In this document: positions 7,806 to 42,880 of the stretch, in pieces
Layout of the letters: each line of letters starts with the position of its first letter
How positions within the stretch are numbered: position 1 is the first letter of the stretch
Source of the DNA: a virus
Reading direction: 5' to 3' (one strand)
DNA: 42,880 nucleotides
IMG/VR virus record: IMGVR_UViG_3300050014_000111
Location: 1-42,880 of that record
Notes under the pieces: generated by a model
What the model was told of the DNA's origin: nothing
The model's input: only the letters and a program-made list of their open reading frames with translations
Databases searched by the model: none
Translations under genes and position numbers: made by a program

Positions 7806-7894
7806 TGTTTGGGGGCATCCTCATGGGCATGTTGATCGGTTTCGTGCTGGGGGCGTGGTATGGGTCAACCGAAGGGAGGAGGAGCAGACAATAG
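7805..7894 (+). CDS. Tiny membrane peptide (29 aa)
   Basis: ATG 7805 overlaps the TAA of terL (TAATG). The 29-residue product is one Gly-rich membrane helix (GGILMGMLIGFVLGAWYG) with a basic tail, STEGRRSRQ. Phages often carry such peptides, but none is identified here. Its 3' end contains the AGGGAGGAGGAG ribosome site of the next gene and its TAG lies in ATAG, overlapping the likely start of the acetyltransferase. Confidence 0.5.
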   Translation: MFGGILMGMLIGFVLGAWYGSTEGRRSRQ

Positions 7895-8385
7895 AACTTC
7901 GAGCCTTGGATTTATCGGACATGGAATTAATACGCCAGTGGAGGAACGGCTGCCTGGAGACTTTACGGACGCCGTATCCGTTGACGAGGGAGATGCAGGA
8001 ATCATTTTACAAAGACGTCTGCAACCGCCCCGATGCCCGCTATTGGGCCCTGGTGGAGAACGGCAAGACTATCGGCATGGGCGGTTTGACTAGCATCCAG
8101 TGGGAGAATCGTATAGCGGAGATCAGCCTAATCCTCGCTCCCGGCGAGAGATACAAGAACATCGGATCATCCGCCGCTGATCTCATTCTCAACGAGGGAT
8201 TTCGCAGCATGGGTTTGAAGACGGTTTACGGCGAGTGCTATTACTGCAACGCCGCAGGGATCAATTTCTGGAAGAAGTACATCGAGACGAGTGACATTTG
8301 CATTTATTCGACGAAACTGCCAAACAGGAAATTCCGCAACGGCCTATTCTATGATAGCCTGTATGTTTCCATTGATGCGCCATGA
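7855..8385 (+). CDS. GNAT acetyltransferase, PseH-like
   Basis: A GNAT-fold enzyme of about 165-176 residues, closest by eye to PseH/RimJ-type acetyltransferases that N-acetylate the amino sugar in pseudaminic acid synthesis. IELRALDLSDMELIRQWRNG is the first strand and helix; IAEISLILAPGERYKNIGSS holds the acetyl-CoA pyrophosphate loop; the YCNAAGINFWKKY helix is typical. GTG 7855 is the longest start. The AGGGAGGAGGAG site (7873-7884) instead points to ATA 7891, exactly at the first family residue. First gene of the sugar cassette; ends in an ATGA overlap with the NeuB-like gene. Confidence 0.82.
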   Translation: MVWVNRREEEQTIELRALDLSDMELIRQWRNGCLETLRTPYPLTREMQESFYKDVCNRPDARYWALVENGKTIGMGGLTSIQWENRIAEISLILAPGERYKNIGSSAADLILNEGFRSMGLKTVYGECYYCNAAGINFWKKYIETSDICIYSTKLPNRKFRNGLFYDSLYVSIDAP

Positions 8386-8963
8386 TCATACTGGACTTCG
8401 GCTCAGGCAACACCTGCCAGAACGACGTCGACATCGTTAAGCGAATGATCGACGAGCTCAAGGCCGTGGACACCGGCTACCGTGAGGTCGTAATCAAATG
8501 GCAGCTATTCATCGCGGCAGGGGAGAACCTTCTGCTGAACCACACCATCTTCGACATAGCTTATGAGCACGCCGCGAAACTTGGTTACAGAACGACGGCG
8601 AGCGTGTTTGATCAGTCCTCTTTACATTTCCTGCTCAAGTATGACGTGCCATTTGTAAAAATCGCCAACCGTCGGGATATATATTGGCTGTATGATGAAA
8701 TACCCGTAGGGATGGCATTGGTCAGCGGGGACAACCGGGACATGTGTTGCATATCTAAGTATCCGGCGACTATTGAAGATTACGAGGCGAACTATTCAGC
8801 AGATAGTTTGAGGCATGGCATCAGCGACCATACGACCAATTTTACCTTGTTTCACAAATATAATCCGGAGATTTATGAGTGTCACTACAAACTTGAGGAT
8901 TCAATTGGTCTGGACGCGGGAGACTTCAGTCGCACTCCTGAAATGCTCAAGGAGATTTTATGA
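8382..8963 (+). CDS. Compact NeuB/PseI-like nonulosonic acid synthase, no SAF domain
   Basis: A 193-residue relative of N-acetylneuraminate/pseudaminate/legionaminate synthases, which condense phosphoenolpyruvate with a six-carbon amino sugar. Matching elements are VVIKWQLF (Lys39), TTASVFDQSSLHFL, PFVKIANR (Lys93), SKYPATIEDY, the metal-binding HGISDHT (His150), and YECHYKLED (His168) with a closing LDAGDFSRTPEML. Full-length enzymes have about 340 residues and a C-terminal SAF (antifreeze-like) domain whose Arg reaches into the partner subunit; that domain is absent here and the barrel is shortened. It could be a reduced synthase or have changed substrate. It is coupled to its neighbours on both sides by ATGA. 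Confidence 0.75.
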   Translation: MIILDFGSGNTCQNDVDIVKRMIDELKAVDTGYREVVIKWQLFIAAGENLLLNHTIFDIAYEHAAKLGYRTTASVFDQSSLHFLLKYDVPFVKIANRRDIYWLYDEIPVGMALVSGDNRDMCCISKYPATIEDYEANYSADSLRHGISDHTTNFTLFHKYNPEIYECHYKLEDSIGLDAGDFSRTPEMLKEIL

Positions 8964-9322
8964 AAAAACGATGCGACCTATGCAAACATATCGGAATCGA
9001 TTGTGGCCCAACAATATGCAATGACGATGGAACAGTAAACAAAAGACGCTACCGAGAATGTGAGAACCATAGCGCGTGGGAACCTATGAGCAATATTAAG
9101 CGCATCTGCCCAGACAATAAGACCGCTTTGATTAAGTGGATCGAAGATAACTTCCACAACATCGATCAGTTTGTTTTTGTCGCCCGCATGAGTAATAGCG
9201 TCACCACGACGATCTATGACTGCTTTACCTATTATGACTCAGTTGCCATGACTGGGATCGCCCAGAACGTCATGCACGAGTTGGAGTACGATGATGCGTT
9301 TATCTGCAAGGAGAGAGAATGA
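8960..9322 (+). CDS. Unknown protein within the sugar cassette (120 aa)
   Basis: ATG 8960 overlaps the preceding TGA, and the stop overlaps the PseB-like start. The N-terminus has CDLCKHIGIDCGPTIC and a later CENH, suggesting a zinc-binding or disulfide-rich module; the remainder is alpha/beta with no motif that I know. The strict coupling implies production together with the glycan enzymes, but it may be a passenger gene. Confidence 0.65.
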   Translation: MKKRCDLCKHIGIDCGPTICNDDGTVNKRRYRECENHSAWEPMSNIKRICPDNKTALIKWIEDNFHNIDQFVFVARMSNSVTTTIYDCFTYYDSVAMTGIAQNVMHELEYDDAFICKERE

Positions 9323-10248
9323 ACATACTCATCACCGGGGGAACGGGATCATTTGGCAGATTTTTCACCAAATACATACTGACGCAGAATCCGGCCCGCG
9401 TGGTCGTGTTCTCCCGGGACGAATTAAAACAGTACGAGATGCAGCAGGAGATCCAGGACGAGCGGCTGAGATTCTTCATCGGCGACATAAGAGACAAGGA
9501 AAGACTGCTCGCTGCGTTCAGGGGTGTCGATTACGTCATCCACGCGGCCGCCATGAAGCAAGTAGAGTCTTGCGAGTACAATCCCTTCGAAGCCGTAAAG
9601 ACAAACGTCCTGGGAGCGCAGAACATCATAGAGGCGGCGATAGAATGCAAAGTCAAGAAAGTGATCGCGTTGAGCACGGACAAAGCCTGCGCCCCTGTGA
9701 ATACATACGGCAAGTCAAAAGCCCTAATGGAATCTCTTTTCGTTGCCGGGAACAATTATGCTGGTTCGATGCAGACCCGTTTTGCTGTTGCACGCTATGG
9801 CAACGTAGTCTCTTCGCGGGGGTCTGTAATTCCCTTGTTCTTGAAGCAGCGGGAGACCGGAACGATCACCTTGACGTCGGAAAGAATGACGCGGTTCTGG
9901 ATCGCACTGGATGAGGCTGTAAGATTTGTCCACGCCTCTCTTCTCCGTATGCACGGCGGGGAGATCTTTGTCCCGAAGATACCGAGCATGAAGATAACGG
10001 ATCTCGCTAAAGCAATCGCTCCTGGATGCAAAGTAAAAGTGACAGGCATTCGACCGGGCGAGAAGCTCCACGAGACCCTGATCACCGAGGACGAGGCAAG
10101 ACACACCATCGAGGACGAAGGGTACATCATCCTTCCTGAATACCCCGAATGGGGCAGGCACTACGATAAACCGATGGGAGGCTATGAACTGTCGAGCGAT
10201 AAAAATAAAGAATGGCTGACAGTGAAAGACATGGAGGGAAAATGTTAG
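9319..10248 (+). CDS. pseB: PseB-like UDP-N-acetylglucosamine 4,6-dehydratase
   Basis: A 309-residue short-chain dehydrogenase/reductase of the FlaA1/PseB type. NAD(P)-binding TGGTGSFG is at residues 6-13 and FIGDIRD follows the second strand. Catalytic STDKA (Asp121, Lys122) and the Tyr130-Lys134 pair in NTYGKSK match inverting 4,6-dehydratases, which make the UDP-4-keto-6-deoxy sugar that starts pseudaminic acid synthesis. IRPGEKLHE near residue 250 is a further family signature. It is embedded in a coupled operon with an acetyltransferase, a synthase and a cytidylyltransferase. Confidence 0.9.
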   Translation: MNILITGGTGSFGRFFTKYILTQNPARVVVFSRDELKQYEMQQEIQDERLRFFIGDIRDKERLLAAFRGVDYVIHAAAMKQVESCEYNPFEAVKTNVLGAQNIIEAAIECKVKKVIALSTDKACAPVNTYGKSKALMESLFVAGNNYAGSMQTRFAVARYGNVVSSRGSVIPLFLKQRETGTITLTSERMTRFWIALDEAVRFVHASLLRMHGGEIFVPKIPSMKITDLAKAIAPGCKVKVTGIRPGEKLHETLITEDEARHTIEDEGYIILPEYPEWGRHYDKPMGGYELSSDKNKEWLTVKDMEGKC

Positions 10249-11042
10249 TTTTAGGTACGGTCCAGCTCGGTATGCCCTATGGTTGCAACAACAAGACCGG
10301 CCAGCCCTCGCGCAAGGAAGCACTTGAAATGCTGGCCTACGCCAAAGAAAGGATTGACTGGTTCGACACCGCCGAGGCATACGGCAGCGAAGAGATCCTT
10401 GGCGAGTCCGGTATGCAGGGGAAGAAGGTCATCACGAAGCTATTGTCCAATTGTCTGGATGGAGTCAGCGACGTAAAAACGGCTGTCAGGGAACATCTCG
10501 AAGGCTCGCTCAAGAGGTTGAAGCTGGATCAGGTCGAGGGGTATCTGTTGCACACTCCGAGATATGCAAGTGACCATGAAATATACGAAGCGATGTTTAC
10601 TGCCAGAGAAGCAGGACTGACTAAAAATATAGGTGTAAGCGTTTACGGTACAGACGAAGCACTACACACAATGAGGATGGCTTATAATTTTGTTCAATTC
10701 CCGTTTGGTGTTTTAGATCAGCGAATGAAAGAAATACCCGATTGGTACAAAGGTGATATTAAGGAATTTGCTCGCGCTCCCTTTACTCAGGGCGCAGTGT
10801 TCACACAGTTTCCGCCGGCTGTTCAGTTTAGAGAACTCTGCCGGCAGTACGGAGCAACGCCCGTCCAAGGCGCTCTAGGCTATGCTTTGTCAAACTACGA
10901 CAACGTGGTATTTGGCTGCGAGACAATGAAACAACTTGAAGAGGACCTGGCAGAGATACCGAAGAACCCGAAGCTCTACAAACGGATCAGGAAGGAGCTA
11001 GGACACTGCGATCTAATGTTCAATTCACTATGGGCAAAGTAG
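10242..11042 (+). CDS. Aldo/keto reductase of glycan cassette
   Basis: A 266-residue TIM-barrel reductase. The catalytic tetrad of aldo/keto reductases is complete: Asp42 and Tyr47 in FDTAEAYGSEE, Lys66 in VITKLL and His104 in YLLHTP. Relatives are often found in clostridial and bacillar flagellar glycosylation and spore-coat polysaccharide clusters next to SpsF-like and class III aminotransferase genes; the exact reaction there is not known to me. Start ATG 10242 follows GGAGGG and overlaps the PseB stop by seven bases. Confidence 0.87.
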   Translation: MLVLGTVQLGMPYGCNNKTGQPSRKEALEMLAYAKERIDWFDTAEAYGSEEILGESGMQGKKVITKLLSNCLDGVSDVKTAVREHLEGSLKRLKLDQVEGYLLHTPRYASDHEIYEAMFTAREAGLTKNIGVSVYGTDEALHTMRMAYNFVQFPFGVLDQRMKEIPDWYKGDIKEFARAPFTQGAVFTQFPPAVQFRELCRQYGATPVQGALGYALSNYDNVVFGCETMKQLEEDLAEIPKNPKLYKRIRKELGHCDLMFNSLWAK

Positions 11043-11752
11043 TAGCGATTATACAGGCGCGCATGGGTTCGACGAGATTACCCGGCAAGGTTCTTCTCCC
11101 GCTCGGTGGCAAGCCGATGATCGTCCAGATGGTGGAGCGAGTGAAGAGAAGCGCGCTGGTGGATGAAGTGTGGGTGGCGATACCGATACCCGACAGGCCG
11201 ACAGAACTTTGCGACGTGTTGGTTGACAACGGTATTGCCTGTATGTGTGGCAGCGAGGAAGATGTCTTGGATAGATATTATCATGTTGCAAATCTTGTTG
11301 GAGCCGATCATATCGTCCGCCTTACCGCCGACTGCCCGTTGATTGACCCGGCGATAATTGATATGGTCGTTTGGGCTCATATCCATGGAGGGTATAGCTA
11401 TACAAGCAATGTTCATCCTCCAATGTTTCCTGATGGCATGGACGTAGAAGTTATGGACATGAACGCTTTAGACCTCGCTCAACACAATGCTGCATCATCG
11501 CTTGACCGCGAACACGTCACGAGATGGATTCATCGAGAACTGAAACGGCAGGTTAATGTTCCGGGAATTGATGACCACTCCGACATCCGTCTCACTGTTG
11601 ATTACATCGAAGATTATCAGGCAGTAAGAACAATATGGGATGCCATGCCGGAGAACTTTACCCTGTTTCATATTCTTCGCTATCTGAGAGAGCATCCTGA
11701 AGTGAGGGCAATTAACCAGAAATACAAAAGAAATACCAAGGAGGGCGCATGA
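11030..11752 (+). CDS. spsF: SpsF-like CMP-sugar cytidylyltransferase
   Basis: A 240-residue nucleotidyltransferase of the CMP-KDO/CMP-NeuAc synthetase superfamily, SpsF branch. The N-terminal nucleotide loop reads IIQARMGSTRLPGK (about residues 7-20), followed by LGGKPMI, and the metal-binding LTADCPLID. LDREHVTRWIH matches the SpsF/PseF substrate region. It should activate the nonulosonic acid as a CMP-sugar for transfer. The start overlaps the reductase end by 13 bases, and the stop overlaps the aminotransferase start (ATGA). Confidence 0.9.
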   Translation: MGKVVAIIQARMGSTRLPGKVLLPLGGKPMIVQMVERVKRSALVDEVWVAIPIPDRPTELCDVLVDNGIACMCGSEEDVLDRYYHVANLVGADHIVRLTADCPLIDPAIIDMVVWAHIHGGYSYTSNVHPPMFPDGMDVEVMDMNALDLAQHNAASSLDREHVTRWIHRELKRQVNVPGIDDHSDIRLTVDYIEDYQAVRTIWDAMPENFTLFHILRYLREHPEVRAINQKYKRNTKEGA

Positions 11753-12903
11753 GGATACCTGGAACAACCGGGACGTTCAGCAAGGGACCCACTCAGTGGC
11801 CGGGAGTCGGCAAAGCAGAGAGAGGTAAAGGTTGCAAACTATGGATTGACGGCAAGGAATACATCGATCTCGTCATGGGCTTGACGCCTGTCATATTGGG
11901 CTACTGCAACGAAGAGGTTGACGACGCGGTGAAGAGGCAGATCGACAAGGGTTCAATCTTCACCCTGCCGTCAGAGCTTGAAGAGATCGTCGCTGAAAGA
12001 ATTTGTCAGATGGTGCCCAACGCGGAGATGGTCCGCTTCGGCAAGAACGGTTCGGACGCAACCAGCGGCGCGGTGAGACTGGCGAGAGCGATCACGGGAA
12101 GGGACCACATCGCCCAGTGTGGCTACCACGGCTGGCAGGACTGGAGCATAGGCGTAGCGGGGCGAAATCTCGGCGTACCGTCCAGAGTATCAGAATTGAC
12201 GCACCCCTTCAAATACAACAACCTCGCAAGCCTGGAGGCCATCTTCGATCTATACCCTAACCAGATCGCTTGCGTGATCATGGAGCCTGTCAATAAAGAG
12301 GAACCGAAGGACGATTTCCTGAACGCCGTCAAGAATCTCTGCCACAAGAACAACGCCCTGTTCATCCTTGATGAAGTAGTTACCGGTTTCCGCATCGCCA
12401 AGGGGGGCGCGCAGGAGTGCTATGGAGTGGACGCCGACCTCGTGTGTCTCGGTAAAGCTTTGGCCAACGGCTATCCTCTGTCTGCTATCGCTGGCCGTAA
12501 AGAGTATATGGAGTATATGACCAGGGTTCATTACTCATTCACCTTCTCAGGGGACTGCATCGCGCTTGCGGCTGCGGAAAAGACGTTGGAGATAATCGAA
12601 AGAGATAACGTGCCTGGTATGCTCAAAAATATAGGCCATGAAATTATGAGAGATGTTGATCTTAGATTTGGTGGTAACGAAGCGTGGCCACATATTATCT
12701 TCGATACCCCGCAAGAAAGGCAGTTGTTCCGGCAATCATGTTACGAAACGCATCTTTTGGTGATGGATACTATAAACCTTTGTTATGCAACTCGGTGCGT
12801 AAATACTTTAGCTATGCTTGGCCGTGCAATTACGCATATGTCTGCCATTGAAGAACGGCCTGATAAGCCGTGGCCGGTTCCCTCGTTCCAGGTGAGAGCA
12901 TGA
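11749..12903 (+). CDS. Class III PLP aminotransferase, HemL-like
   Basis: A 384-residue fold-type I enzyme resembling glutamate-1-semialdehyde aminomutase. Key elements are GSDATSGAVRLARA (phosphate loop), GYHGWQDW, FILDEVVTGFR (Asp to the pyridine nitrogen) and LGKALANGYPLSAIAG with the PLP Lys. It is somewhat shorter than HemL (about 430). In NulO-type glycan islands such HemL-like enzymes accompany SpsF and an aldo/keto reductase and probably aminate a keto-sugar or its side chain. No separate PseC-type aminotransferase is present, so it may take that role. Coupled on both sides by ATGA. Confidence 0.9.
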   Translation: MRIPGTTGTFSKGPTQWPGVGKAERGKGCKLWIDGKEYIDLVMGLTPVILGYCNEEVDDAVKRQIDKGSIFTLPSELEEIVAERICQMVPNAEMVRFGKNGSDATSGAVRLARAITGRDHIAQCGYHGWQDWSIGVAGRNLGVPSRVSELTHPFKYNNLASLEAIFDLYPNQIACVIMEPVNKEEPKDDFLNAVKNLCHKNNALFILDEVVTGFRIAKGGAQECYGVDADLVCLGKALANGYPLSAIAGRKEYMEYMTRVHYSFTFSGDCIALAAAEKTLEIIERDNVPGMLKNIGHEIMRDVDLRFGGNEAWPHIIFDTPQERQLFRQSCYETHLLVMDTINLCYATRCVNTLAMLGRAITHMSAIEERPDKPWPVPSFQVRA

Positions 12904-14255
12904 TGGACGAGGCGGTTAAGAACGCGTTATTAGTCTCAGCGGGAACGGAAAACCGTTTCTTCACTCAATGGGCAGACCATCAACTGATCAATCTATTGAG
13001 CAAGGAAAGATGGGTCAGCGAGCTTTACGGCAAATATACCTGCCCGGCGATCATCGTAGCAGGAGGACCGAGTTTAGAGAAGCAGATCGACACGTTGAGA
13101 GAGTGTCAGGGCAAGGCAGTGATCATCGCGTGCGGGACAGCGGCTTTATCGCTACACGTCAAAGGGATCACGCCAACCTATATCATGTGCGTCGATCCTA
13201 TCTACGAGAATATCAACTACTGCAAGCCCTGGATCAATAAAGTACCCATGATAACGAACCTGAGAACGCACCCGGACATATTAACTCTTTTCAAGGGCAA
13301 TCAGTATCGTTTCCTCGGAGAGGGAGAATTTCTTTCCAAGCGTTTTTACAAGGATGCTCCCTGCATGGGCGATACAGTGACGGTGACAGGCCAGGCTATC
13401 CAGATCGCTTTCAATCTAGGGTGCGCGCCTGTGATTCTGATCGGTCAGGATTTATGTTATTACGGCGACAAGTCTCACGCCTTCGGAGTGTTCAAGCAAA
13501 AGTATAATTCTCATCCTATACCAATTAAGGACATCAACGGGGAAGATGTGAACACGGATGAAGTCTTTCAGGCGATGAAATACTGTCTGAACAATATCGC
13601 CTCGCAGTCTTACGGCGTGGTTGTCAACTGCACTGAAGGCGGCTTGGGAATAGAGGGAGCGGAGAACAGACCGTTCAAAGAGGTATGCCAAGAATGGATG
13701 ACGGATGATGTCGATTTCGTTCATCATGAAATTATCGAACCTGAGAGAATCGACCAGTCCGAGTTCTTCGGTCAACTATTGGATGACGCACGTTGGATCA
13801 AAGAGAAGATCGGGTATAAGCGATCTCTTCTTCGTATCTGCGAGAACAATGAACATTTCATCCCGGAGATCAAACGTGTCGAAGAGGAACTGTATTCCAA
13901 CAAGTTATACTTCGATGCGATCTACCCCTCGATTCAGAATATGGTCTTGGTGCAAGTTGTGGAGGACGAGAAGAAACAGAGATTCAGGATACAGGAAAAG
14001 ATATGTTCTTATTGTCTCGCGGCTCTGGACAACCTCATATTCCTAGTTGAGAAGAGGCTGAAGGCGAAGAACGACGTCGATCTGTATTCCCTGGTTGATT
14101 TCTCGAAGCTGAACAAGGAAGGATTCGATCAGATCCTTCTCTACGCCTACAATACGGAAACCGATGTCTGGTCAGTAGCAGTAAACGCGGGGATAGATCA
14201 GATCAACAAACTGATCGTTTACCTGCAACAATCAGTGGGGGAGATAAGGGGATGA
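12900..14255 (+). CDS. Maf/DUF115 family glycosyltransferase (motility accessory factor)
   Basis: A 451-residue protein with the DUF115 (MAF_flag10, 6-hydroxymethylpterin pyrophosphokinase MptE-like) core: CPAIIVAGGPSLEKQ, VIIACGTAALSLHVKGI, IMCVDPIYEN and later VILIGQDLCYY. Maf proteins transfer pseudaminic or legionaminic acid onto Ser/Thr of flagellin in flagellated bacteria. No flagellin gene lies nearby, so the acceptor could be a phage virion protein or host flagellin. ATG 12900 overlaps the aminotransferase stop. The C-terminal 170 residues are helical. This is the last gene of the cassette. Confidence 0.88.
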   Translation: MMDEAVKNALLVSAGTENRFFTQWADHQLINLLSKERWVSELYGKYTCPAIIVAGGPSLEKQIDTLRECQGKAVIIACGTAALSLHVKGITPTYIMCVDPIYENINYCKPWINKVPMITNLRTHPDILTLFKGNQYRFLGEGEFLSKRFYKDAPCMGDTVTVTGQAIQIAFNLGCAPVILIGQDLCYYGDKSHAFGVFKQKYNSHPIPIKDINGEDVNTDEVFQAMKYCLNNIASQSYGVVVNCTEGGLGIEGAENRPFKEVCQEWMTDDVDFVHHEIIEPERIDQSEFFGQLLDDARWIKEKIGYKRSLLRICENNEHFIPEIKRVEEELYSNKLYFDAIYPSIQNMVLVQVVEDEKKQRFRIQEKICSYCLAALDNLIFLVEKRLKAKNDVDLYSLVDFSKLNKEGFDQILLYAYNTETDVWSVAVNAGIDQINKLIVYLQQSVGEIRG

Positions 14256-23203: not shown

Positions 23204-25186
23204 ATGGGCTTCTTTGGTGGAAATACTAGCGTAGCTACAGGTTGGCAAGCTCCCACTGATTGGCCTTCGCTCAATGACTGCGCCCTCGGCAACATTGAGA
23301 TGATCGTCAATGATCAGACGATGGCCACATACGCGTTTGTCTGTACCACATCCGCCGCGGCCAACTACCAGATCAACTGGGGCGACGGCAACACGATTCA
23401 ATATGCCTCAGGCGCAACGGCGCAGCATACCTACACTGTCGGATCAGGTACTCCGTGTTCTCTCGGTTATACAACATTCAAGATTACCATCTCGCCTGTC
23501 TCTGGCAACCTGACCGCGTTTGCCGTAGCTCCGCACAGTTTGGCGGTGAATATTCAATATCACGCCATCCTGTCCGCGTATATCAGGGCGACATCCCTGG
23601 CATCGTTGGCTAGCGCGTTCTACTGCGCGACCGGGGCAAAAGTGTATTGCCGACAGTTGGAAAACTGCGTCGTGCAAGACGCGATGCCCAGTTGTCTCTC
23701 CGCAACGAGTATGTTCACCACTTGCTACTCGCTTCAGTCTGTCAACGTTAGCGGCATGACGGCAGTGACCACCGCAACGAGTATGTTCACCACTTGCTAC
23801 TCGCTTCAGTCTGTCAACGTTAGCGGCATGACGGCAGTGACCACCGCAACGAGTATGTTTAATGCTTGCACCTCGCTCCAGTCCGTCAACGTCTCAGGCA
23901 TGACGGCAGTGACCACCGCAACGAGTATGTTTAATAATTGCTACTCGCTTCAGTCTGTCAACGTTAGCGGCATGACGGCAGTGACCACCGCAACGAGTAT
24001 GTTTAATAGTTGCTACTCGCTTCAGTCTGTCAACGTTAGCGGCATGACGGCAGTGACCACCGCAGCGAGTATGTTTAATAGTTGCTACTCGCTTCAGTCT
24101 GTCAACGTTAGCGGCATGACGGCAGTGACCACCGCAGCGAGTATGTTTAATGCTTGCACCTCGCTCCAGTCTGTCAACGTTAGCGGCATGACGGCAGTGA
24201 CCACCGCAACGAGTATGTTTAATGCTTGCACCTCGCTCCAGTCCGTCAACGTCTCAGGCATGACGGCAGTGACCACCGCAACGAACATGTTCACCAGTTG
24301 CTACTCGCTTCAGTCTGTCAACGTTAGCGGCATGACGGCAGTGACCACCGCAACGAGTATGTTCACCAGTTGCTACTCGCTCTCTACGGTGACAATGACT
24401 AGCTTCGCATCCGCAGCGGCTTCGCTGTTAGCTGATACAATGTTCTCAGGCTGTGAGCAGATGATCAACATTCTGCTGCCCACCGCTAAGGTGACGAAGT
24501 TGGGCATGGCGGGTGCAACAGGGTTACTCGACAAACTCGCTACCATCTCGTTCAACGCGGCCAGTACCTTCAGCGGCACGTCTCCACAGCTGGACGTTTC
24601 TTACTGCACCCTGACAGCAGCGCAACTCAATACCATATTCGGGCAATTGCCGAACAACTTGGCCAAGACAGTCAATATCACGGGTTGCACAGGGGAGACG
24701 CTGGTTACTCTTTCAGGGACGACGGTATTAGGATCAACCACAGTGACTATGGCAAGCACCGCAGGACTATCTACGGGGATGGAGATGACAGGCACGGGAA
24801 TCAACACCGCTCAGGCTGTCACCACCACAGTCAGCACGTCCGTGGTCAACCTGACGGCTCATGGCATACCGAACGGCACTCTCGTTTATTTCCCGACGCT
24901 TAACAACACGACAGGGATCACGGTCAACACGCCGTACTTCGTGGTCAACGCTGCCACCAACACTTTCCAGGTATCACTGACATCGGGAGGCGCGGCGATC
25001 ACATTCGGCGGCACCAACGCCACGTCAGCCACCGTATTCTACGGCAACACGATCCAGGCAATCAGCCCGAACGTTTCTGTGACGCTACTTATACCAGCAT
25101 CCTCAGCCAATGTGGGGGAGAGCACGGTATCCAGCGTATGCTTACATTCACTGGCGGCAGGTAAAGGCTGGACGATCACCGGTTAG
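23204..25186 (+). CDS. Leucine-rich-repeat (BspA/DUF285-like) phage appendage protein
   Basis: ATG 23204 follows AAGGAG. The 660-residue product has an N-terminal PKD-like segment (YQINWGDGNTIQYASG ... HTY, residues about 55-85), then ten BspA/DUF285-type repeats of 24 residues (SMFxxCxSLQSVNVSGM; residues about 167-390), a less regular LRR cap and a C-terminal beta-sandwich-like region with GSTTVTMASTAGLSTGM. BspA-like LRRs bind host surfaces or carbohydrate in bacteria and eukaryotes, so a receptor-binding or surface-display role is reasonable. No signal peptide, consistent with a virion protein. Copies are almost identical at DNA level. Confidence 0.78.
   Translation: MGFFGGNTSVATGWQAPTDWPSLNDCALGNIEMIVNDQTMATYAFVCTTSAAANYQINWGDGNTIQYASGATAQHTYTVGSGTPCSLGYTTFKITISPVSGNLTAFAVAPHSLAVNIQYHAILSAYIRATSLASLASAFYCATGAKVYCRQLENCVVQDAMPSCLSATSMFTTCYSLQSVNVSGMTAVTTATSMFTTCYSLQSVNVSGMTAVTTATSMFNACTSLQSVNVSGMTAVTTATSMFNNCYSLQSVNVSGMTAVTTATSMFNSCYSLQSVNVSGMTAVTTAASMFNSCYSLQSVNVSGMTAVTTAASMFNACTSLQSVNVSGMTAVTTATSMFNACTSLQSVNVSGMTAVTTATNMFTSCYSLQSVNVSGMTAVTTATSMFTSCYSLSTVTMTSFASAAASLLADTMFSGCEQMINILLPTAKVTKLGMAGATGLLDKLATISFNAASTFSGTSPQLDVSYCTLTAAQLNTIFGQLPNNLAKTVNITGCTGETLVTLSGTTVLGSTTVTMASTAGLSTGMEMTGTGINTAQAVTTTVSTSVVNLTAHGIPNGTLVYFPTLNNTTGITVNTPYFVVNAATNTFQVSLTSGGAAITFGGTNATSATVFYGNTIQAISPNVSVTLLIPASSANVGESTVSSVCLHSLAAGKGWTITG
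23702..24381 (+). repeat. 72-bp tandem repeats, nine full copies plus a partial
   Basis: Full units start at 23702, 23774, 23846, 23918, 23990, 24062, 24134, 24206 and 24278; a partial begins at 24350. Copies differ mainly in the codons after SMF (TTCY, NACT, NNCY, NSCY, TSCY), in one Ala/Thr position and in a GTTAGC/GTCTCA synonymous block. Confidence 0.96.
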
Positions 25187-34989: not shown

Positions 34990-36293
34990 AAGTTCTATTC
35001 GTTTCAGCGTTCGGAGAGTCTTTCCCTCTCGCTCTTCATCTTTTAGATGAGGGCCATGATCCCGCTATGTTCATCCAGTGTAAAGGATACAAGGATGTTG
35101 GCGAGGGATTCAAAGTTAAAAGGATCGGCTCTCTTGATGAGTGCAAGCGGCTGATCTCTTCGGGCAAGGTCGACCTGTCCTATACGGATGAGTGCAAACA
35201 GAAAATAAGTATTCAGGATGGTATCTACGGCGGCGGTGAGTTAGCCGATCAACTACGCAAACTGGGGAAGCCGGTCATCGGCGGGAACGCATACGGCGAC
35301 AAGCTAGAGAATGATCGCTTGTTCGCTCAGTCTGTATTCAAGAAAGCGGGGATGGATGTTGTTCCCGTAGTAGAATTTCACACATGGGACGCGGGCAAGA
35401 AGTTCCTCAAGAAAGAAAAAGGCTCATGGGCGATTAAACATTGTGGACAGACACCAAGGGACTTGAATGGAGCATTCTTCGATCCCGAAGAGATGATGAG
35501 CTTTCTGGAGTGGTCGGAAGAGATATGGGACAAGGAAACACAGCACACCCCGGTACATTTCATCTTTCAGCAGGCCGTGAAAGGAATCGAGATCGCAGTC
35601 ACGGGATTTGTCAGGAACGGAGAAGTTCTCCCCGGGACTGTTTATTTGAACCAGGAAACAAAAAAACTGATGAACGGCGGCTACGGTCCTTCATCTGGTC
35701 AGGTCTCGGAGGTTGGGAGATTTATTGACGGCACGAAGCTGTACGAGCAAACCATAGCGAAGATCGCTCCACTCTTGGGTAAAGATTATCTGTGCTGGAT
35801 GGATATTAACTGCATAATCGCCAAGGACAAGGTCGTTCCGCTTGAAGCAACTTGCAGAAACGGACTCCCTACGGCATTCTCTTTCTTTGAGGGGGTTGGA
35901 AACGTCGGAGATTTCTTCGAGAGCGTATTGAAGGGGAAAGAGATAAAACACAGCAATGATTGGATTACTAACGTGGTTGTCGCAACAGGGACATTCCCCA
36001 ATGAGGACAAAGACGCGAACAAGAAACCGCTTATTCTCGGATTAGAAAACTGCGACCTTTCGCATACTTGGCCTTACGAGATACGAATGGAAGGCGAAAA
36101 GGTGAGGGGCGCAGGAGAGATCGGAAACACGGTCACATTCACCGCCAAAGGGAAAAAAATAGAGGATTCCTTTCAGACCTGCCTGAAGCGAACGGAGCAA
36201 GTGAAAGTTTTGCCGTTCAAAAAGATAAGAACGGACGGCTATGAAAAGGCGGTCAAAGACTTTCCTCAACTTGAAAAGGATGGATGGATATGA
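34986..36293 (+). CDS. ATP-grasp ligase, PurD (GARS)-like
   Basis: ATG 34986 overlaps the preceding TGA. The 435-residue protein has a pre-ATP-grasp N-terminal domain (MKVLFVSAFGESFPLALHLL; GKPVIGGNAYGDKLENDR), an ATP-grasp core with AIKHCGQTPRD as the ATP-lid strand, EIAVTGFVRNGEVLPG, YGPSSGQVSE and LEATCRNGLPTAFSF, the last parallel to the metal/acid region of glycinamide ribonucleotide synthetase. ATP-grasp enzymes join a carboxylate to an amine through an acyl-phosphate. The substrate is unknown; a SAM decarboxylase homologue lies two genes on, so a polyamine or amino-acid conjugate is conceivable. Purine synthesis genes are otherwise absent. Confidence 0.78.
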   Translation: MKVLFVSAFGESFPLALHLLDEGHDPAMFIQCKGYKDVGEGFKVKRIGSLDECKRLISSGKVDLSYTDECKQKISIQDGIYGGGELADQLRKLGKPVIGGNAYGDKLENDRLFAQSVFKKAGMDVVPVVEFHTWDAGKKFLKKEKGSWAIKHCGQTPRDLNGAFFDPEEMMSFLEWSEEIWDKETQHTPVHFIFQQAVKGIEIAVTGFVRNGEVLPGTVYLNQETKKLMNGGYGPSSGQVSEVGRFIDGTKLYEQTIAKIAPLLGKDYLCWMDINCIIAKDKVVPLEATCRNGLPTAFSFFEGVGNVGDFFESVLKGKEIKHSNDWITNVVVATGTFPNEDKDANKKPLILGLENCDLSHTWPYEIRMEGEKVRGAGEIGNTVTFTAKGKKIEDSFQTCLKRTEQVKVLPFKKIRTDGYEKAVKDFPQLEKDGWI

Positions 36294-36685
36294 AAATACT
36301 GCTAGACGTGATACCTCATTCAGAACAAAGATACCCGACACCTGGGGACTATTTTAAAGAAGATGGCATGTGGAAGATAGTCGCTTCAGAACTGCCGAAC
36401 CCCGACCACTCTTTCCTTATACAGCTTCACGAACTGATAGAGCTCTACCTGACGCAGAAGCGTGGAATAGAGGAACCCGACATCATGGCCTTCGATCTTC
36501 AGTATGAGAAGGAAAGAAATGTCGGAGACCATTCAGAGGAAGAAGAGCCCGGAGATGATCCCCGTGCCCCTTATTACCGTGAGCATCAGTACGCGAGTGC
36601 CGTTGAATACCTGATGGCTGTCGCTTTAGATGTTGACCGAAACGATTACGACAATGCGGTATTGGAGTTACTGAATCCTACTTAG
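36290..36685 (+). CDS. Conserved phage protein with HELIE helix
   Basis: ATG 36290 overlaps the ATP-grasp stop; ATG 36284 is an alternative. The product of about 131 residues reads MKILLDVIPHSEQRYPTPGD, then FLIQLHELIELYLTQKRGI, and MAFDLQYEKER. I know this pattern (PHSxQRYPTxGDW ... HELxE) from Firmicute phage hypothetical proteins. HELIE could be a zinc-protease-like HExxE helix, but a third ligand is not obvious. The C-terminal part holds an acidic stretch and AVEYLMAVALDVD. Confidence 0.65.
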   Translation: MKILLDVIPHSEQRYPTPGDYFKEDGMWKIVASELPNPDHSFLIQLHELIELYLTQKRGIEEPDIMAFDLQYEKERNVGDHSEEEEPGDDPRAPYYREHQYASAVEYLMAVALDVDRNDYDNAVLELLNPT

Positions 36686-36699
36686 CGGAGGTGGTTGTA

Positions 36700-37083
36700 T
36701 TGAAAGGATATGTGATCTACGCTGATTTGTTCGGGTGTCAGACGCTGATCGACAAGTCTTTGGAATCCTTCAACACCATAATCGAAGCTGTCACTACGGC
36801 GGGGATGAGGCCGGTTCATTCTGTCTCTGAACTATTCCCGAAGGCGCGCTTTGCATCCAACTCCGGGGTGTCCGTGATGACGCTGATCATACCTTTAACG
36901 GAGAGCCATTGCTGCCTTCATACTTGGCCGGAGTTTGACAATTTGACATGCATCGATCTATTTACCTGCGGCCCTCCTGAGAAGGCGCACAAGGCCGTTG
37001 AACTGCTTATAGAGAAACTGAAGCCGAAGGAAACAAGAGTGGTCGCATTTGAACGCGGCCTCCCGGTGGGAGGTGACAAATAA
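36700..37083 (+). CDS. speD: S-adenosylmethionine decarboxylase-like pyruvoyl enzyme
   Basis: TTG 36700 lies five bases after GGAGGTGG (36687-36694) and gives 127 residues, the usual length of class 1b SpeD. The maturation site is Glu68-Ser69 in LTESHCCLHTWPEF: Ser69 should become the pyruvoyl group. His74 and Cys90 (LFTCG) are the conserved catalytic residues. SpeD makes decarboxylated SAM for spermidine; some homologues, including phage ones, act on ornithine or arginine. No spermidine synthase is nearby. It may adjust polyamines for DNA packaging, use SAM up, or feed the ATP-grasp enzyme. Confidence 0.88.
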   Translation: MKGYVIYADLFGCQTLIDKSLESFNTIIEAVTTAGMRPVHSVSELFPKARFASNSGVSVMTLIIPLTESHCCLHTWPEFDNLTCIDLFTCGPPEKAHKAVELLIEKLKPKETRVVAFERGLPVGGDK

Positions 37084-37121
37084 ATGTCCATCTTAATCGT
37101 GTCTAGTAGGGGGATGGTGCT

Positions 37122-37505
37122 ATGAGTGAAGATCATGACTGTGTGCATGAAGCGGATATAGGCAAGATGAAGGCGGAACTGACCAACCTTGAGCGGTGGC
37201 AGACTGCCCAGAATGGCACACTGGCCAGGATAGAGGATAAGGTTGAGCATAGCCTGACGGATATCAAGAAAGAGTTTATTGCATCGCTGGACAGTACCCA
37301 TAGGGAATTTATTGCTAGCATGGGCAGTAGCCATAAGGAGTTTGCTGAATCCCTCATCAACGTCAATAAGAGATTTAAGGAGAACTGGGACAACCTGAAC
37401 AGGAAATTCGACCGGATCAATGCGTGGATGTACGGGCTGATGGGTAGTCTGATCCTCGCCCTGATCCTGCTGGTTCTCAACCTGGTTTTGGGAGCGAAGA
37501 AATAA
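37122..37505 (+). CDS. XhlA-like membrane protein with hendecad coiled coil
   Basis: ATG 37122. A 127-residue protein with a long N-terminal helix and one C-terminal membrane span (MYGLMGSLILALILLVLNLV) ending GAKK. Five 11-residue units share a [KR]xF start (KEFIASLDSTH, REFIASMGSSH, KEFAESLINVN, KRFKENWDNLN, RKF), a hendecad coiled coil. XhlA/haemolysin-type lysis proteins have this architecture and lie beside holin and endolysin, as here. It probably assists membrane disruption. Confidence 0.75.
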   Translation: MSEDHDCVHEADIGKMKAELTNLERWQTAQNGTLARIEDKVEHSLTDIKKEFIASLDSTHREFIASMGSSHKEFAESLINVNKRFKENWDNLNRKFDRINAWMYGLMGSLILALILLVLNLVLGAKK

Positions 37506-37518
37506 GAGGCGATCCCAT

Positions 37519-37740
37519 GTGGACATTGAAAAACTGATCGGCCAGGCAGAATACGACACCACATTCACGCTCGGCTCCTGTGTCCTGTGTGGAACGGCAA
37601 CGTACTGCGGGGCACGTATTCCCCGGTCGAGCGACTTCTGGACGGGGAAGCGATTCGTTTATTTATGCTTCAGAGAGCATCGCAACGAGGCAGGGCTACG
37701 ACAGGCATTAAATGATGAAGTTAAGGAAGAGAGGTGTTGA
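37519..37740 (+). CDS. Small Cys-containing protein in lysis module (73 aa)
   Basis: GTG 37519 is used because the ATG two bases earlier is out of frame and stops at once; GAGGCG lies upstream. The product has CVLCGTATYCG, a possible zinc knuckle, and a basic C-terminus. No family recognised; its place between the XhlA-like and amidase genes suggests a lysis or accessory role. Confidence 0.55.
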   Translation: MDIEKLIGQAEYDTTFTLGSCVLCGTATYCGARIPRSSDFWTGKRFVYLCFREHRNEAGLRQALNDEVKEERC

Positions 37741-37743
37741 CCA

Positions 37744-38460
37744 GTGTCTAAGATCGCGATTGACCCTGGGCACTAGCACGGCGGATATGATTCCGGGGCT
37801 GTAGGCCCCACCGGTCTTCAGGAGAAGAACGTTACGTTGGCGGTTGCCCTACTTGTAGGCCCCATTCTCACGGCGGCAGGAATTCAGGTGATCTATACCC
37901 GCACAAGCGATCAAGTTCCCTGGCCGGCAAACGTGAACGCTGATTTGCAGATGCGGTGCGACATCGCCAACAACGCCAAGGCCGATGCGTTCCTCAGCAT
38001 CCACTGCAATGCGTCAGATGACCACACTGCTCACGGAAGCGAGAGCTTCTGTTACGCGCTCGGCGGCAAAGGCCAGGTTTTAGCGGGCGATGTGTTGGCT
38101 CCGCTAGTGGCCGCCATCGCCACCGTCAATCGGGGTGTGCAGGCGGCTAATTATGAGGTGCTACGGAATACGTCCATGCCGGCTGCCCTGGTGGAGACAG
38201 CCTTCATTTCTGACCCGGCGGAGGAGGCGATGCTGAGAAGCCCGGCGGCTCAGGCGAAGATTGCCCAGGCTATCGCCCAGGGGATCTGCGCTTACTTCAA
38301 TATTACTACGATCCCAGGTATGACCTATGCCGGGAGCAGAATCACCGGCCAAGTCCTGGCCGACGGTCACCTGTGGGTAAAGGCGACTGACGCGGCAGGG
38401 TTGTTTGGGCACGCGCTTTACAATTGGAACGCCGCAACGGAAACGCTGACGATCAATTAA
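37744..38460 (+). CDS. N-acetylmuramoyl-L-alanine amidase (endolysin) with in-frame TAG
   Basis: GTG 37744 follows GAGAGG. The frame reads SKIAIDPGH, then TAG (37774-37776), then HGGYDSGAVGPTGLQEKNV and continues open to TAA 38458-38460. Amidase_3 features are complete: Zn-His in DPGH, FLSIHCNAS, and Glu in LVETAFISDPAEE. The C-terminal 45 residues (GSRITGQVLADGHLWVKATD) form a small beta domain. The canonical motif is DPGHGG; CAC-TAG-CAC-GGC-GGA would give exactly that if the ribosome hopped from one His codon to the next. Other options are amber suppression, a damaged gene or a sequencing error. No ATG/GTG restart keeps the Zn-His. Confidence 0.85.
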
Positions 38461-38494
38461 CGGCTGACATCCTATCTGTCAGAAGGAGAAAACT

Positions 38495-38755
38495 ATGACT
38501 ACCGTTAACGTAACTGTCACCGTCACTGATTCCCTCGGAGCAATCGTTGCCGAGACCATGACCCTGAACATTAACGACGAGGATCTGAAGTTTGGCACCA
38601 CGACCCTGCCGGATGGTAAAGTAGGAGAAACCTACAGCGAGACGGTCACCGCGGAAGGTGGTACTCCGCCCTATGTTTTCACCGCGGAAGGACTCCCTTT
38701 GGGTCTGACCATCGATTCAGCGGGCGTGATCAGCGGAACCCCTACCCTCAGCTAA
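38495..38755 (+). CDS. Putative Ig (He_PIG)-domain protein
   Basis: ATG 38495 follows AGAAGGAG. The 86-residue product matches the putative-Ig He_PIG pattern: LPDGKVGETYSETVTAEGGT, PPYVFTAEGLPLGLTID, GVISGTPTL. In bacteria and phages it mediates surface attachment or acts as a decoration. It lies between endolysin and holin genes, an odd location, so it may help anchor the lysin or be a late decoration protein. Confidence 0.8.
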   Translation: MTTVNVTVTVTDSLGAIVAETMTLNINDEDLKFGTTTLPDGKVGETYSETVTAEGGTPPYVFTAEGLPLGLTIDSAGVISGTPTLS

Positions 38756-38772
38756 AGAAAGGAGGCAAGATT

Positions 38773-38979
38773 ATGGATACGGTAAAGCAGTCACGCTGGT
38801 CTTCAAAAGTTCTGTGGGCGAGCATTATCGCCCAGGTTCTGGTCATTTTGCAGTTGACCGGCACGTTCGCGAAAATGGGGCTCGACCCCGGATACATCGG
38901 CAACGTTATAGCGGCTATCCTGCAGCTGCTTGTGACCGTTGGTGTACTCAATAATCCATCCGACAGTGCAAATTTCTAA
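38773..38979 (+). CDS. Holin-like small membrane protein
   Basis: ATG 38773 follows AAAGGAGG. The 68-residue product has two hydrophobic stretches (VLWASIIAQVLVILQL and NVIAAILQLLVTVGVL) with a short GLDPGYIG turn and ends NNPSDSANF, like phi-LC3/Firmicute holins that end in V-x-N/D-P-T/S. It would form membrane lesions to release the amidase. It is the last gene of the late operon and is followed by a terminator. Confidence 0.8.
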   Translation: MDTVKQSRWSSKVLWASIIAQVLVILQLTGTFAKMGLDPGYIGNVIAAILQLLVTVGVLNNPSDSANF

Positions 38980-39000
38980 TCTAAATGTTTTCCTCCTCTT

Positions 39001-39030
39001 GGGGCGGCTCTCGGGCTGCCCCTTTTCTGT
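39001..39030 (+). terminator. Terminator of the late operon
   Basis: GGGGCGGC (39001-39008) pairs with GCTGCCCC (39015-39022), with a G-T pair and a six-base loop, followed by TTTTCTGTTT. It closes the late transcription unit just after the holin gene. Confidence 0.85.
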
Positions 39031-39045
39031 TTCACGAATCAAGGG

Positions 39046-39074
39046 TTGACAATTCTCCGAAATTGTCGTAAACT
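39046..39074 (+). promoter_or_regulatory. Early promoter 1
   Basis: TTGACA (39046-39051), 17-base spacer, TAAACT (39069-39074). The spacer holds CTCCGAAATT, the same element as in the late promoter at 5677. An ACAATT...AATTGT inverted repeat overlaps the -35 region. Confidence 0.7.
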
Positions 39075-39090
39075 AAACTTAACTAAGTTT
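39075..39090. promoter_or_regulatory. Operator-like inverted repeat at the start site of promoter 1
   Basis: AAACTTA (39075-39081) and TAAGTTT (39084-39090) form a perfect palindrome with a two-base centre, located exactly where transcription from promoter 1 should begin. A repressor site is likely; the binding protein is unknown. Confidence 0.6.
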
Positions 39091-39108
39091 TCCTCCCCTC
39101 CTCGAAAA

Positions 39109-39136
39109 GGCCCGGGCTGACCACCCGGGTCTTTTT
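39109..39136 (+). terminator. Leader terminator downstream of early promoter 1
   Basis: GGCCCGGG (39109-39116) pairs with CCCGGGTC (39124-39131), with one G-T pair and a CTGACCA loop, then TTTTT. It lies only about 35 bases past the -10 box, and no gene lies between. Confidence 0.85.
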
Positions 39137-39180
39137 ATTCGCGCTTAAAAATAATTAAAAATATATTTTCATTTACCCCC

Positions 39181-39208
39181 TTGACATCCATATACTCTAT
39201 GGTATCAT
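39181..39208 (+). promoter_or_regulatory. Early promoter 2
   Basis: TTGACA (39181-39186), 16-base spacer, TATCAT (39203-39208), ahead of AGAAGGAGG and the first early gene. This promoter lacks the CTCCGAAATT element and lies downstream of the leader terminator, so it would drive the early block independently. Confidence 0.75.
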
Positions 39209-39231
39209 GGCAATAGAAGGAGGCGAGTTGA

Positions 39232-39384
39232 ATGAAAATGATTTCAGTCCAGACGTTTTTAGATGCAGAGGATCACACCCGCTTCAAAATAGTTTGCGCA
39301 AAGAAGAAGGAGAGTATTGAGGCGGCGACTCGAAGACTGATCGTCGAGTACGTGGCGAAGGAAAAGCGCAAGGAGGTGGTTTGA
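39232..39384 (+). CDS. Small ribbon-helix-helix-like protein (50 aa)
   Basis: ATG 39232 follows AGAAGGAGGCG. The 50-residue product reads TFLDAEDHTRFKIVCAKKKE, then SIEAATRRLIVEYV, the strand-helix-helix layout of Arc/MetJ-type DNA-binding proteins. As the first gene after promoter 2, it may autoregulate the early block or bind the nearby palindrome. Assignment is by pattern only. Confidence 0.6.
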   Translation: MKMISVQTFLDAEDHTRFKIVCAKKKESIEAATRRLIVEYVAKEKRKEVV

Positions 39385-39512
39385 TGGTTTGGACGCATCT
39401 AAACCTTTTTGGAATCGGATTTTGCGGTGCCATCGTTCTAGCCATCATGCTAGGTCCGCTGCTCCTGCCGGATGACGAGGTAGACATAATGAGGAGGGGA
39501 AAAAAGAAATGA
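39384..39512 (+). CDS. Single-span membrane peptide (42 aa)
   Basis: ATG 39384 overlaps the preceding TGA. One hydrophobic segment (LFGIGFCGAIVLAIMLGPLL) is followed by an acidic then basic tail (PDDEVDIMRRGKKK). It is coupled by ATGA to the next gene. Function unknown. Confidence 0.55.
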   Translation: MVWTHLNLFGIGFCGAIVLAIMLGPLLLPDDEVDIMRRGKKK

Positions 39513-42448: not shown

Positions 42449-42880
42449 ATGTCTGACATCATTGTTACTTGTCAAGAAGACTGGGACCGTATCCCGGCAG
42501 ATTCGCAGGATTGGATCTATCTCAAATCATCCCCGGAGTCCCGGATCGTGATCGCCCAGCGAAAGGGATTTCGCGTTGTGGCCTGGGGGAACAGCAGCGT
42601 TGTGGCCTGGGGGAACAGCAGCGTTGTGGCCAGGGAGAACGCATCCGTTGAGGCCTGGGGGAACAGCAGCGTTGAGGCCTGGGAGAACGCATCCGTTGTG
42701 GCCAGGGAGAACAGCAGCGTTGAGGCCAGGGAGAACAGCAGCGTTGTGGCCAGGGAGAACGCATCCGTTGAGGCCTGGGGGAACAGCAGCGTTGAGGCCT
42801 GGGAGAACGCATCCGTTGTGGCCAGGGAGAACAGCAGCGTTGAGGCCAGGGAGAACAGCAGCGTTGTGGCCAGGGAGAAC
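42449..42880 (+). CDS. Octapeptide-repeat protein, 3' end missing
   Basis: ATG 42449 follows GAGAGGAGC. After about 42 residues (SDIIVTCQEDWDRIPADSQD ... YLKSSPESRIVIAQRKGFR) the protein becomes tandem eight-residue units V[VE]A[WR][GE]N[SA]S, thirteen of which are visible before the window ends without a stop. Strict alternation of small/hydrophobic and polar residues suggests a beta-helix or solenoid. I have seen similar V-x-A-x-x-N-S-S repeat proteins in gut phages and clostridia, but know no function. The place in the early block is unusual for a structural repeat protein. Confidence 0.75.
   Translation, partial: MSDIIVTCQEDWDRIPADSQDWIYLKSSPESRIVIAQRKGFRVVAWGNSSVVAWGNSSVVARENASVEAWGNSSVEAWENASVVARENSSVEARENSSVVARENASVEAWGNSSVEAWENASVVARENSSVEARENSSVVAREN
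42575..42880 (+). repeat. 24-bp tandem repeats organised in 120-bp higher-order units
   Basis: Each unit of 24 bases encodes eight residues. Units 1 and 2 (42575-42622) are identical. Two identical five-unit blocks follow (42623-42742 and 42743-42862), then 18 bases of a third. The window ends inside the repeat. Confidence 0.97.

Follow-up and report, generated by a model that had tools for sequence, protein, structure and literature searches.

How can a phage make its lysin from a gene in which a stop codon splits the catalytic motif? The question is raised by an IMG/VR virus record of 42,880 bases, analysed at full length and referred to as the window, in which the lysin gene translates as MSKIAIDPGH-UAG-HGGYDSGA, with the DPGH codons at positions 37762–37773. 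A sequence-only reading of this DNA had reported DPGH-stop-HGGYDSGA within an otherwise intact gene and had suggested that the ribosome hops from the His codon before the stop to the one behind it. The description proved exact in sequence and translation, and the encoded protein, with the TAG taken as a residue, gave a Pfam match to Amidase_3 (PF01520, E 7.9e-50, residues 3–181). The frame is likewise intact, with no other in-frame stop, although its length had been put at 228 codons and comes to 227 residues after the stop.

The His encoded by the take-off codon is predicted to be a zinc ligand, as in the Amidase_3 family. DxGH, Glu, SxH and the final Glu are invariant in a 13-sequence alignment (A4); L030, a locus outside this alignment, lacks the last conserved Glu. 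When solved Amidase_3 chains were aligned with the window lysin, a two-residue gap appeared at the insert. A 38-base pattern combining the motif with the six-base insert matched once in the window and never in 100 shuffles. A six-frame search of the window found no second Amidase_3 gene, the only lysis gene recognized among about 33 other frames scanned against Pfam or PHROGs was a holin, and no Rfam match was obtained for positions 36000–39500. The elements of the locus are summarized in Table 1.

Table 1. Features of the lysin locus in the window.
Feature	Position	Strand	Basis
Amidase_3 lysin gene with one in-frame TAG	37744..38460	+	Sequence, translation; PF01520 match
GTG start codon of the lysin	37744-37746	+	Sequence
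Take-off codon CAC (His of DPGH)	37771..37773	+	Sequence; invariant in alignment A4
6-nt insert TAG CAC	37774-37776 (stop), 37777-37779 (landing codon)	+	Stop common to 28/28 loci
TAA end of the lysin	38458-38460	+	Sequence
Predicted hairpin 5' arm (CCAGTGTC), start codon within	37741..37748	+	RNA fold
Predicted hairpin 3' arm (GACCCTGG), 1 nt 5' of take-off codon	37762..37769	+	RNA fold; position common to 14/14 lineages
Likely ribosome binding site AGAGGTG	37730..37736	+	Resembles GGAGGTGGTGCC-ATG before the lysin start of relatives
Holin-like gene, lysin partner	38773..38979	+	PHROG 297 holin, E 2e-6; Pfam Phage_holin_1, E 6e-4, below cut-off

Several further features of the window were recorded. 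An S-adenosylmethionine decarboxylase gene (36691–37083; PF02675, E 1.2e-19) lies just before the lysis region. A tandem array at 23700–24381, in which a 72-base unit is repeated 9.5 times with 91% matches, falls within a 675-aa frame with leucine-rich-repeat-like matches among the structural genes, so that the product would be a protein with a 24-residue repeat. A 24-base tandem repeat (12.8 copies, 42573–42880) reaches the record end, and the related phage L003 carries a similar array. Between terminase and portal, acetyltransferase, nucleotide-sugar epimerase, aminotransferase and MptE-like genes (7855–14255) form a block that perhaps serves surface-sugar modification.

The six-nucleotide insert across lysin lineages

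The same 6-nt insert was found at the same site in 28 loci, which group into 22 clusters when protein identity is set at 90% and into 14 when it is set at 60%. Clusters below 60% identity are counted here as lineages, and some pairs among the 28 loci represent one phage in two collections. The set was assembled from pattern scans of viral contigs and a genome collection, in which each match was read and non-amidases were discarded (5 of 13, 4 of 10 and 9 of 22 matches), and from later genome searches. Among the first 20 loci, the tails share a median identity of only 35%. Carriers include the isolates Anoxybacillus tepidamans DSM 16325 and Paenibacillus sp. FSL H7-0326 and the plaque-forming Geobacillus phage PK5.1, and DxGH-TAG-NNN-GG amidases were also found in Bacillota MAGs. 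A sequencing error or private mutation is therefore ruled out, because isolates carry the insert and many lineages share it. The window has no close DNA relatives in the phage collection; a distinct IMG/VR phage with a 98% identical lysin protein keeps TAGCAC. Close relatives without TAGCAC would have refuted the hop according to the sequence-only reading; this phage and the 28 loci show the opposite.

Counted by genome, the insert was present in 1 of 197 Paenibacillaceae genomes and in 2 of 348 genomes of the class of G001, and the UAG form occurred in 8 of 17 genomes of the class of G005. As a single ancestral cassette may have given rise to every carrier, the 14 lineages are not fully independent. 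At one locus (L264), read by eye, the neighbours of the gene are ComF-, IS110- and LacI-like, a holin-like frame is close by, and the stop-bearing amidase may be chromosomal in view of these surroundings. In L268 (5352–7759), such an amidase adjoins a holin-like frame, and the locus appears to be chromosomal. As it recurs in several genomes of one class, the stop-bearing amidase is a possible domesticated lysis module.

In the sequences found, the first codon of the insert is a stop and never a sense codon. All 28 loci have TAG, followed by C in 27 of them, and UAG-C is a weak termination context. When any six bases were allowed between DxGH and GGxDxGA in the viral contig collection (viral_contigs), 15 loci were retrieved, of which three were chance matches outside the amidases; each of the 12 real amidases had TAG first, and none had a sense codon there. 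An earlier scan of this kind likewise gave TAG in every amidase among the matches listed. Across 38 Amidase_3 matches in six host genomes, a stop lay inside only in the six known loci. In the first 20 loci, the third positions of the preceding Gly and His codons are free to vary, while TAG is fixed. In a homologue from another genome (L286), UAA replaces UAG with the hairpin described below retained; it follows that the stop is conserved, rather than the decoding of UAG as a particular residue.

The codon behind the stop is more variable, with CAC in 13, CAT in 6, CAA in 3, CGC in 3, and CTT, CCC and TAC in one locus each. It encodes His in 19 of 28 loci, and all nine others lie one substitution from CAY, a neighbourhood that holds about 26% of sense codons; shared ancestry weakens the force of this count. 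Such a spectrum is more readily explained if tRNA-His re-pairs with some tolerance than if the match must be strict, and it suits a codon that is not translated better than a residue that is conserved. The codons around the stop, whose identity was emphasized in the sequence-only reading, need not be identical, since nine loci differ at the landing place; in the other 19, His follows His.

The main rival of the stop-hop is readthrough, in which a near-cognate tRNA would decode the stop and yield a lysin with two extra residues (DxGH-X-[HQRLPY]-GG) at a low level, perhaps delaying lysis. The UAG-C context, the variation of the landing codon in 9 of 28 loci and a downstream frame that is open and under purifying selection would all suit such a route. 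An insert tolerated in the protein, however, should drift to sense codons, and not one of the 12 amidases has done so; the UAA form of L286 also speaks against it. In a structure predicted for the read-through protein, confidence is lowest at the insert block (pLDDT 74, compared with 92–95 on either side), a slight indication in the same direction. Overall, we consider readthrough unlikely.

The upstream hairpin and the HNH cassette

In the predicted fold of the 45 nt immediately 5' of the take-off codon, the DxG codons form the 3' arm of a hairpin, and its 5' arm is found at the beginning of the lysin head. The hairpin ends 0–3 nt before the take-off codon in all 14 lineages. The mean fold z was −2.47 (n = 14 lineages), compared with +0.10 for 17 insert-free N-terminal lysins (Mann–Whitney p = 2e-5), with the control loci L272 and L273 omitted for want of a motif match. 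With 25 mixed amidases as the first control set, the picture had been similar (−2.52 for 15 lineages and +0.26 for the controls, p = 1.3e-6). Exchanging the 5' arm between lineages weakened the pairing from −12.6 to −8.3 kcal mol−1 (p = 2e-5); the same swap in the controls left a slight signal in the insert-free N-terminal set (p = 0.017) and p = 0.11 in the first control set. The two arms thus covary between lineages at the level of predicted pairing. Within the L262–L266 clade, one pair changed from A-U to G-C, a head codon change being matched by a synonymous Pro change; with five sequences, too few for the purpose, the pair count did not reach significance (55 of 500 shuffles). The hairpin of the window is the weakest of the set (−8.4 kcal mol−1, z about 0), and those of L018 and L046 are modest. 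Folding of the RNA beyond the stop gave mean z values of −0.15 and −0.56, and no structure was detected there.

A direct comparison is offered by L298, from the same group as the carriers in the class of G005. It is nested among insert-bearing homologues, its sister in the tree (support 0.90) being L289, which carries the insert and with which it shares 78% identity. L298 reads DPGHGG without the insert, and its hairpin is absent as well (z +0.12 vs −3.28 in L289). Judged from these two genes, insert and hairpin were lost together while the open frame continued. This insert-free gene and the lack of sense variants suggest that the gap may be absent from the lysin protein. Two observations also count against readthrough: the gene persists in L298 without the insert, and the covarying hairpin lies 5' of the stop, where such a structure is not known to act in readthrough, with none seen 3' of it.

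The hairpin could instead be unrelated to the passing of the stop, serving either as initiation control or as a DNA palindrome bound by the endonuclease. Its position would be in keeping with such a role, as it begins at or just past the start codon; against this, the hairpin is absent from insert-free lysins and was lost together with the insert in L298. The loop varies in length and sequence, and G-U pairs occur (L042), unlike in a protein-bound palindrome, and the hairpin is retained where no HNH gene is nearby. This explanation is taken to be very unlikely.

In 6 of the 14 lineages, an HNH endonuclease gene ends 8–35 nt before the DxGH codons. The HNH domains were recognized by domain match, with that of L042 below the Pfam cut-off, and the domain of the cassette gave a weak NUMOD3-like match. 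The boundary of the cassette became visible when PK5.1 was compared with its intact relatives PK3.6, NIIg9.7 and PK3.5: the break lies at GGACATGGTGGA, and the old lysin head of PK5.1, MVRIVLDAGHGGRW-stop, remains upstream of the HNH gene. The inserted unit comprises the HNH gene, a new ribosome site, a new head, the hairpin and TAG-CAC, and the same cassette was found behind three different old heads in three phage backgrounds (L005, L010 and L011).

In the window, the 1.8 kb upstream of the lysin contain no HNH gene, and the idea that the gene at 37519–37740 is a decayed HNH gene found no support. Scanning viral_contigs with the HNH alignment yielded 69 loci, three of them before an Amidase_3 gene and all three already in the set; among phages and plasmids, only PK5.1 was recovered at high identity. 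An HNH gene in L166 (2468–3712), 61% identical to the PK5.1 HNH, lies before a different lysin-like frame without a stop. The PK5.1-type nuclease family may thus, as L166 suggests, target lysins more widely.

Function of the split gene and the proposed bypass

The lysin tail after the stop has evolved under purifying selection. The dN/dS was 0.14 between the window and L003 (226 codons after the insert), 0.075 for L005 vs L010, 0.12 for L010 vs L011 and 0.21 for L034 vs L035; dS was saturated for L005 vs L011 and for the window vs L044. With regard to phage biology, the authors of the PK5.1 paper report clear-centred plaques (up to 80 °C) and a single endolysin, note that an HNH gene separates it from the holin, and nowhere use the term 'stop codon' in their text (PMC10459684). 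In PK5.1, too, a six-frame search turned up no further Amidase_3 gene. In the public annotation (OP341628.1, 16656–17264, gp21), the amidase start is placed downstream of DAGH, apparently because of the in-frame TAG.

Two further explanations were weighed. Amber suppression or an altered code, in which UAG would be sense (Gln, Pyl or another residue) in the phages or their hosts, would explain why an essential gene holds a single in-frame UAG. TAG nevertheless serves as the terminator of 9 of the 43 plus-strand frames of the window and of 4 of the 64 PK5.1 genes, no tRNA gene was detected in the window and no suppressor tRNA in 21 loci, no PylS above the cut-off was found in 13 genomes, and the UAA variant exists, so that we regard this route as highly improbable. 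Equally improbable is a broken gene, inactivated by the stop as a scar of homing: homing cassettes are able to damage genes, the ATG of relatives is replaced by ACG in L035, and the last conserved Glu is missing from L030, but the tails show a dN/dS of 0.07–0.21 and no further stops, PK5.1 lyses its host with no other Amidase_3 found, and nearly half of the genomes in the class of G005 keep the UAG form.

The best explanation, as pieced together from sequence comparisons, is probably a natural +6 stop-hop, mobile and assisted by a hairpin, as a form of programmed in-frame translational bypassing. The hop proposed in the sequence-only reading is thereby favoured, on the strength of a stop-only insert, a covarying 5' hairpin and a homing cassette as in T4 gene 60; as that reading also suggested, the hop could delay or limit lysin production. 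A short lysin head would be made first, leaving peptidyl-tRNA-His on CAY in the P site with the stop, usually UAG-C, in the A site. Termination would be slow there, and the hairpin, folding behind the take-off codon, would pull the mRNA forward, because it can close only once the mRNA leaves the ribosome. The tRNA-His would then release, skip six nucleotides and re-pair with the CAY behind the stop, or with a codon close to CAY in that place, before translation restarts at GGN. The product would be a canonical DxGHGGxDxGA amidase without the insert. The homing cassette, bringing the HNH gene, the new head with its hairpin, the stop and the landing codon, would be aimed at the conserved DxGHGG; as the insert splits this target, carriers should be protected from recutting. 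The endonuclease would often be lost later with the hop retained, as probably happened in the lineage of the window.

Comparison with known bypassing systems

No report of this lysin element was found in the open-access literature searched. We think it likely, if with somewhat less assurance than for the hop itself, that this is the first natural in-frame stop-hop: a 6-nt, hairpin-driven element that travels with an HNH gene among phage lysin genes, tolerates near-cognate landing of tRNA-His, outlasts its endonuclease and has settled in a seemingly chromosomal amidase of one bacterial class. Efficient programmed bypassing in bacterial translation has so far mainly meant one well-studied case, T4 gene 60. 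A minimal element in at least 14 lineages reveals which parts are kept, namely the stop, the His-like landing codon and the hairpin behind the take-off codon, and the idea of the hairpin as a motor becomes testable in a small reporter. It also suggests that homing-endonuclease cassettes hid behind ribosome bypassing more than once. On the practical side, gene callers misannotate such lysins, PK5.1 being an example.

Synthetic stop-hops were reportedly obtained in E. coli reporters by Weiss and colleagues in 1987 (reference 54 of PMC5009743). They resemble the lysin element in that the stop is flanked by matched codons, nine nucleotides being translated into one amino acid; the lysin case, in contrast, would be natural and assisted by a hairpin. 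On in-frame stop hopping, a 2016 review states that 'no occurences are known' (PMC5009743). The Magnusiomyces mitochondrial byps, according to the same review, are likewise short inserts that are skipped, sometimes with unmatched take-off and landing codons, but they are mitochondrial, independent of mRNA context, spread over many genes and without a link to a hairpin or homing endonuclease (PMC5009743). Free-standing phage HNH homing endonucleases are similarly inserted at an active-site sequence of a neighbouring gene (PMC2988022). The lysin cassette differs from them by carrying a stop codon and a bypass hairpin into its target gene.

The nearest parallel is T4 gene 60, of which the lysin element would be a small-scale version. 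The mobA and T4 bypass cassette was reportedly the subject of work in 2011; the lysin shares with it an HNH cassette in an essential gene and an insert thought to protect against the nuclease. An endonuclease link of the T4 type exists in the six HNH-bearing lineages, the window being without it. Two points set the lysin apart, as it has no take-off stem-loop in the gap, and its head of about 10–16 residues is too short for the T4 nascent-peptide signal. In T4, UAG follows the take-off codon directly and a 5' stem-loop is thought to pull the mRNA, with landing at a like codon, as proposed for the lysin (PMC5009743, PMC11194080), and the linked homing endonuclease comes with an insert thought to be protective (PMC5009743, PMC11194080, PMC2988022). 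The gap, however, measures 6 nt in the lysin and 50 in T4, the lysin frame is kept, and His takes the place of the T4 Gly. Finally, the lysin landing codon is tolerant, and the lysin element occurs in many lineages, whereas that of T4 occurs in one.
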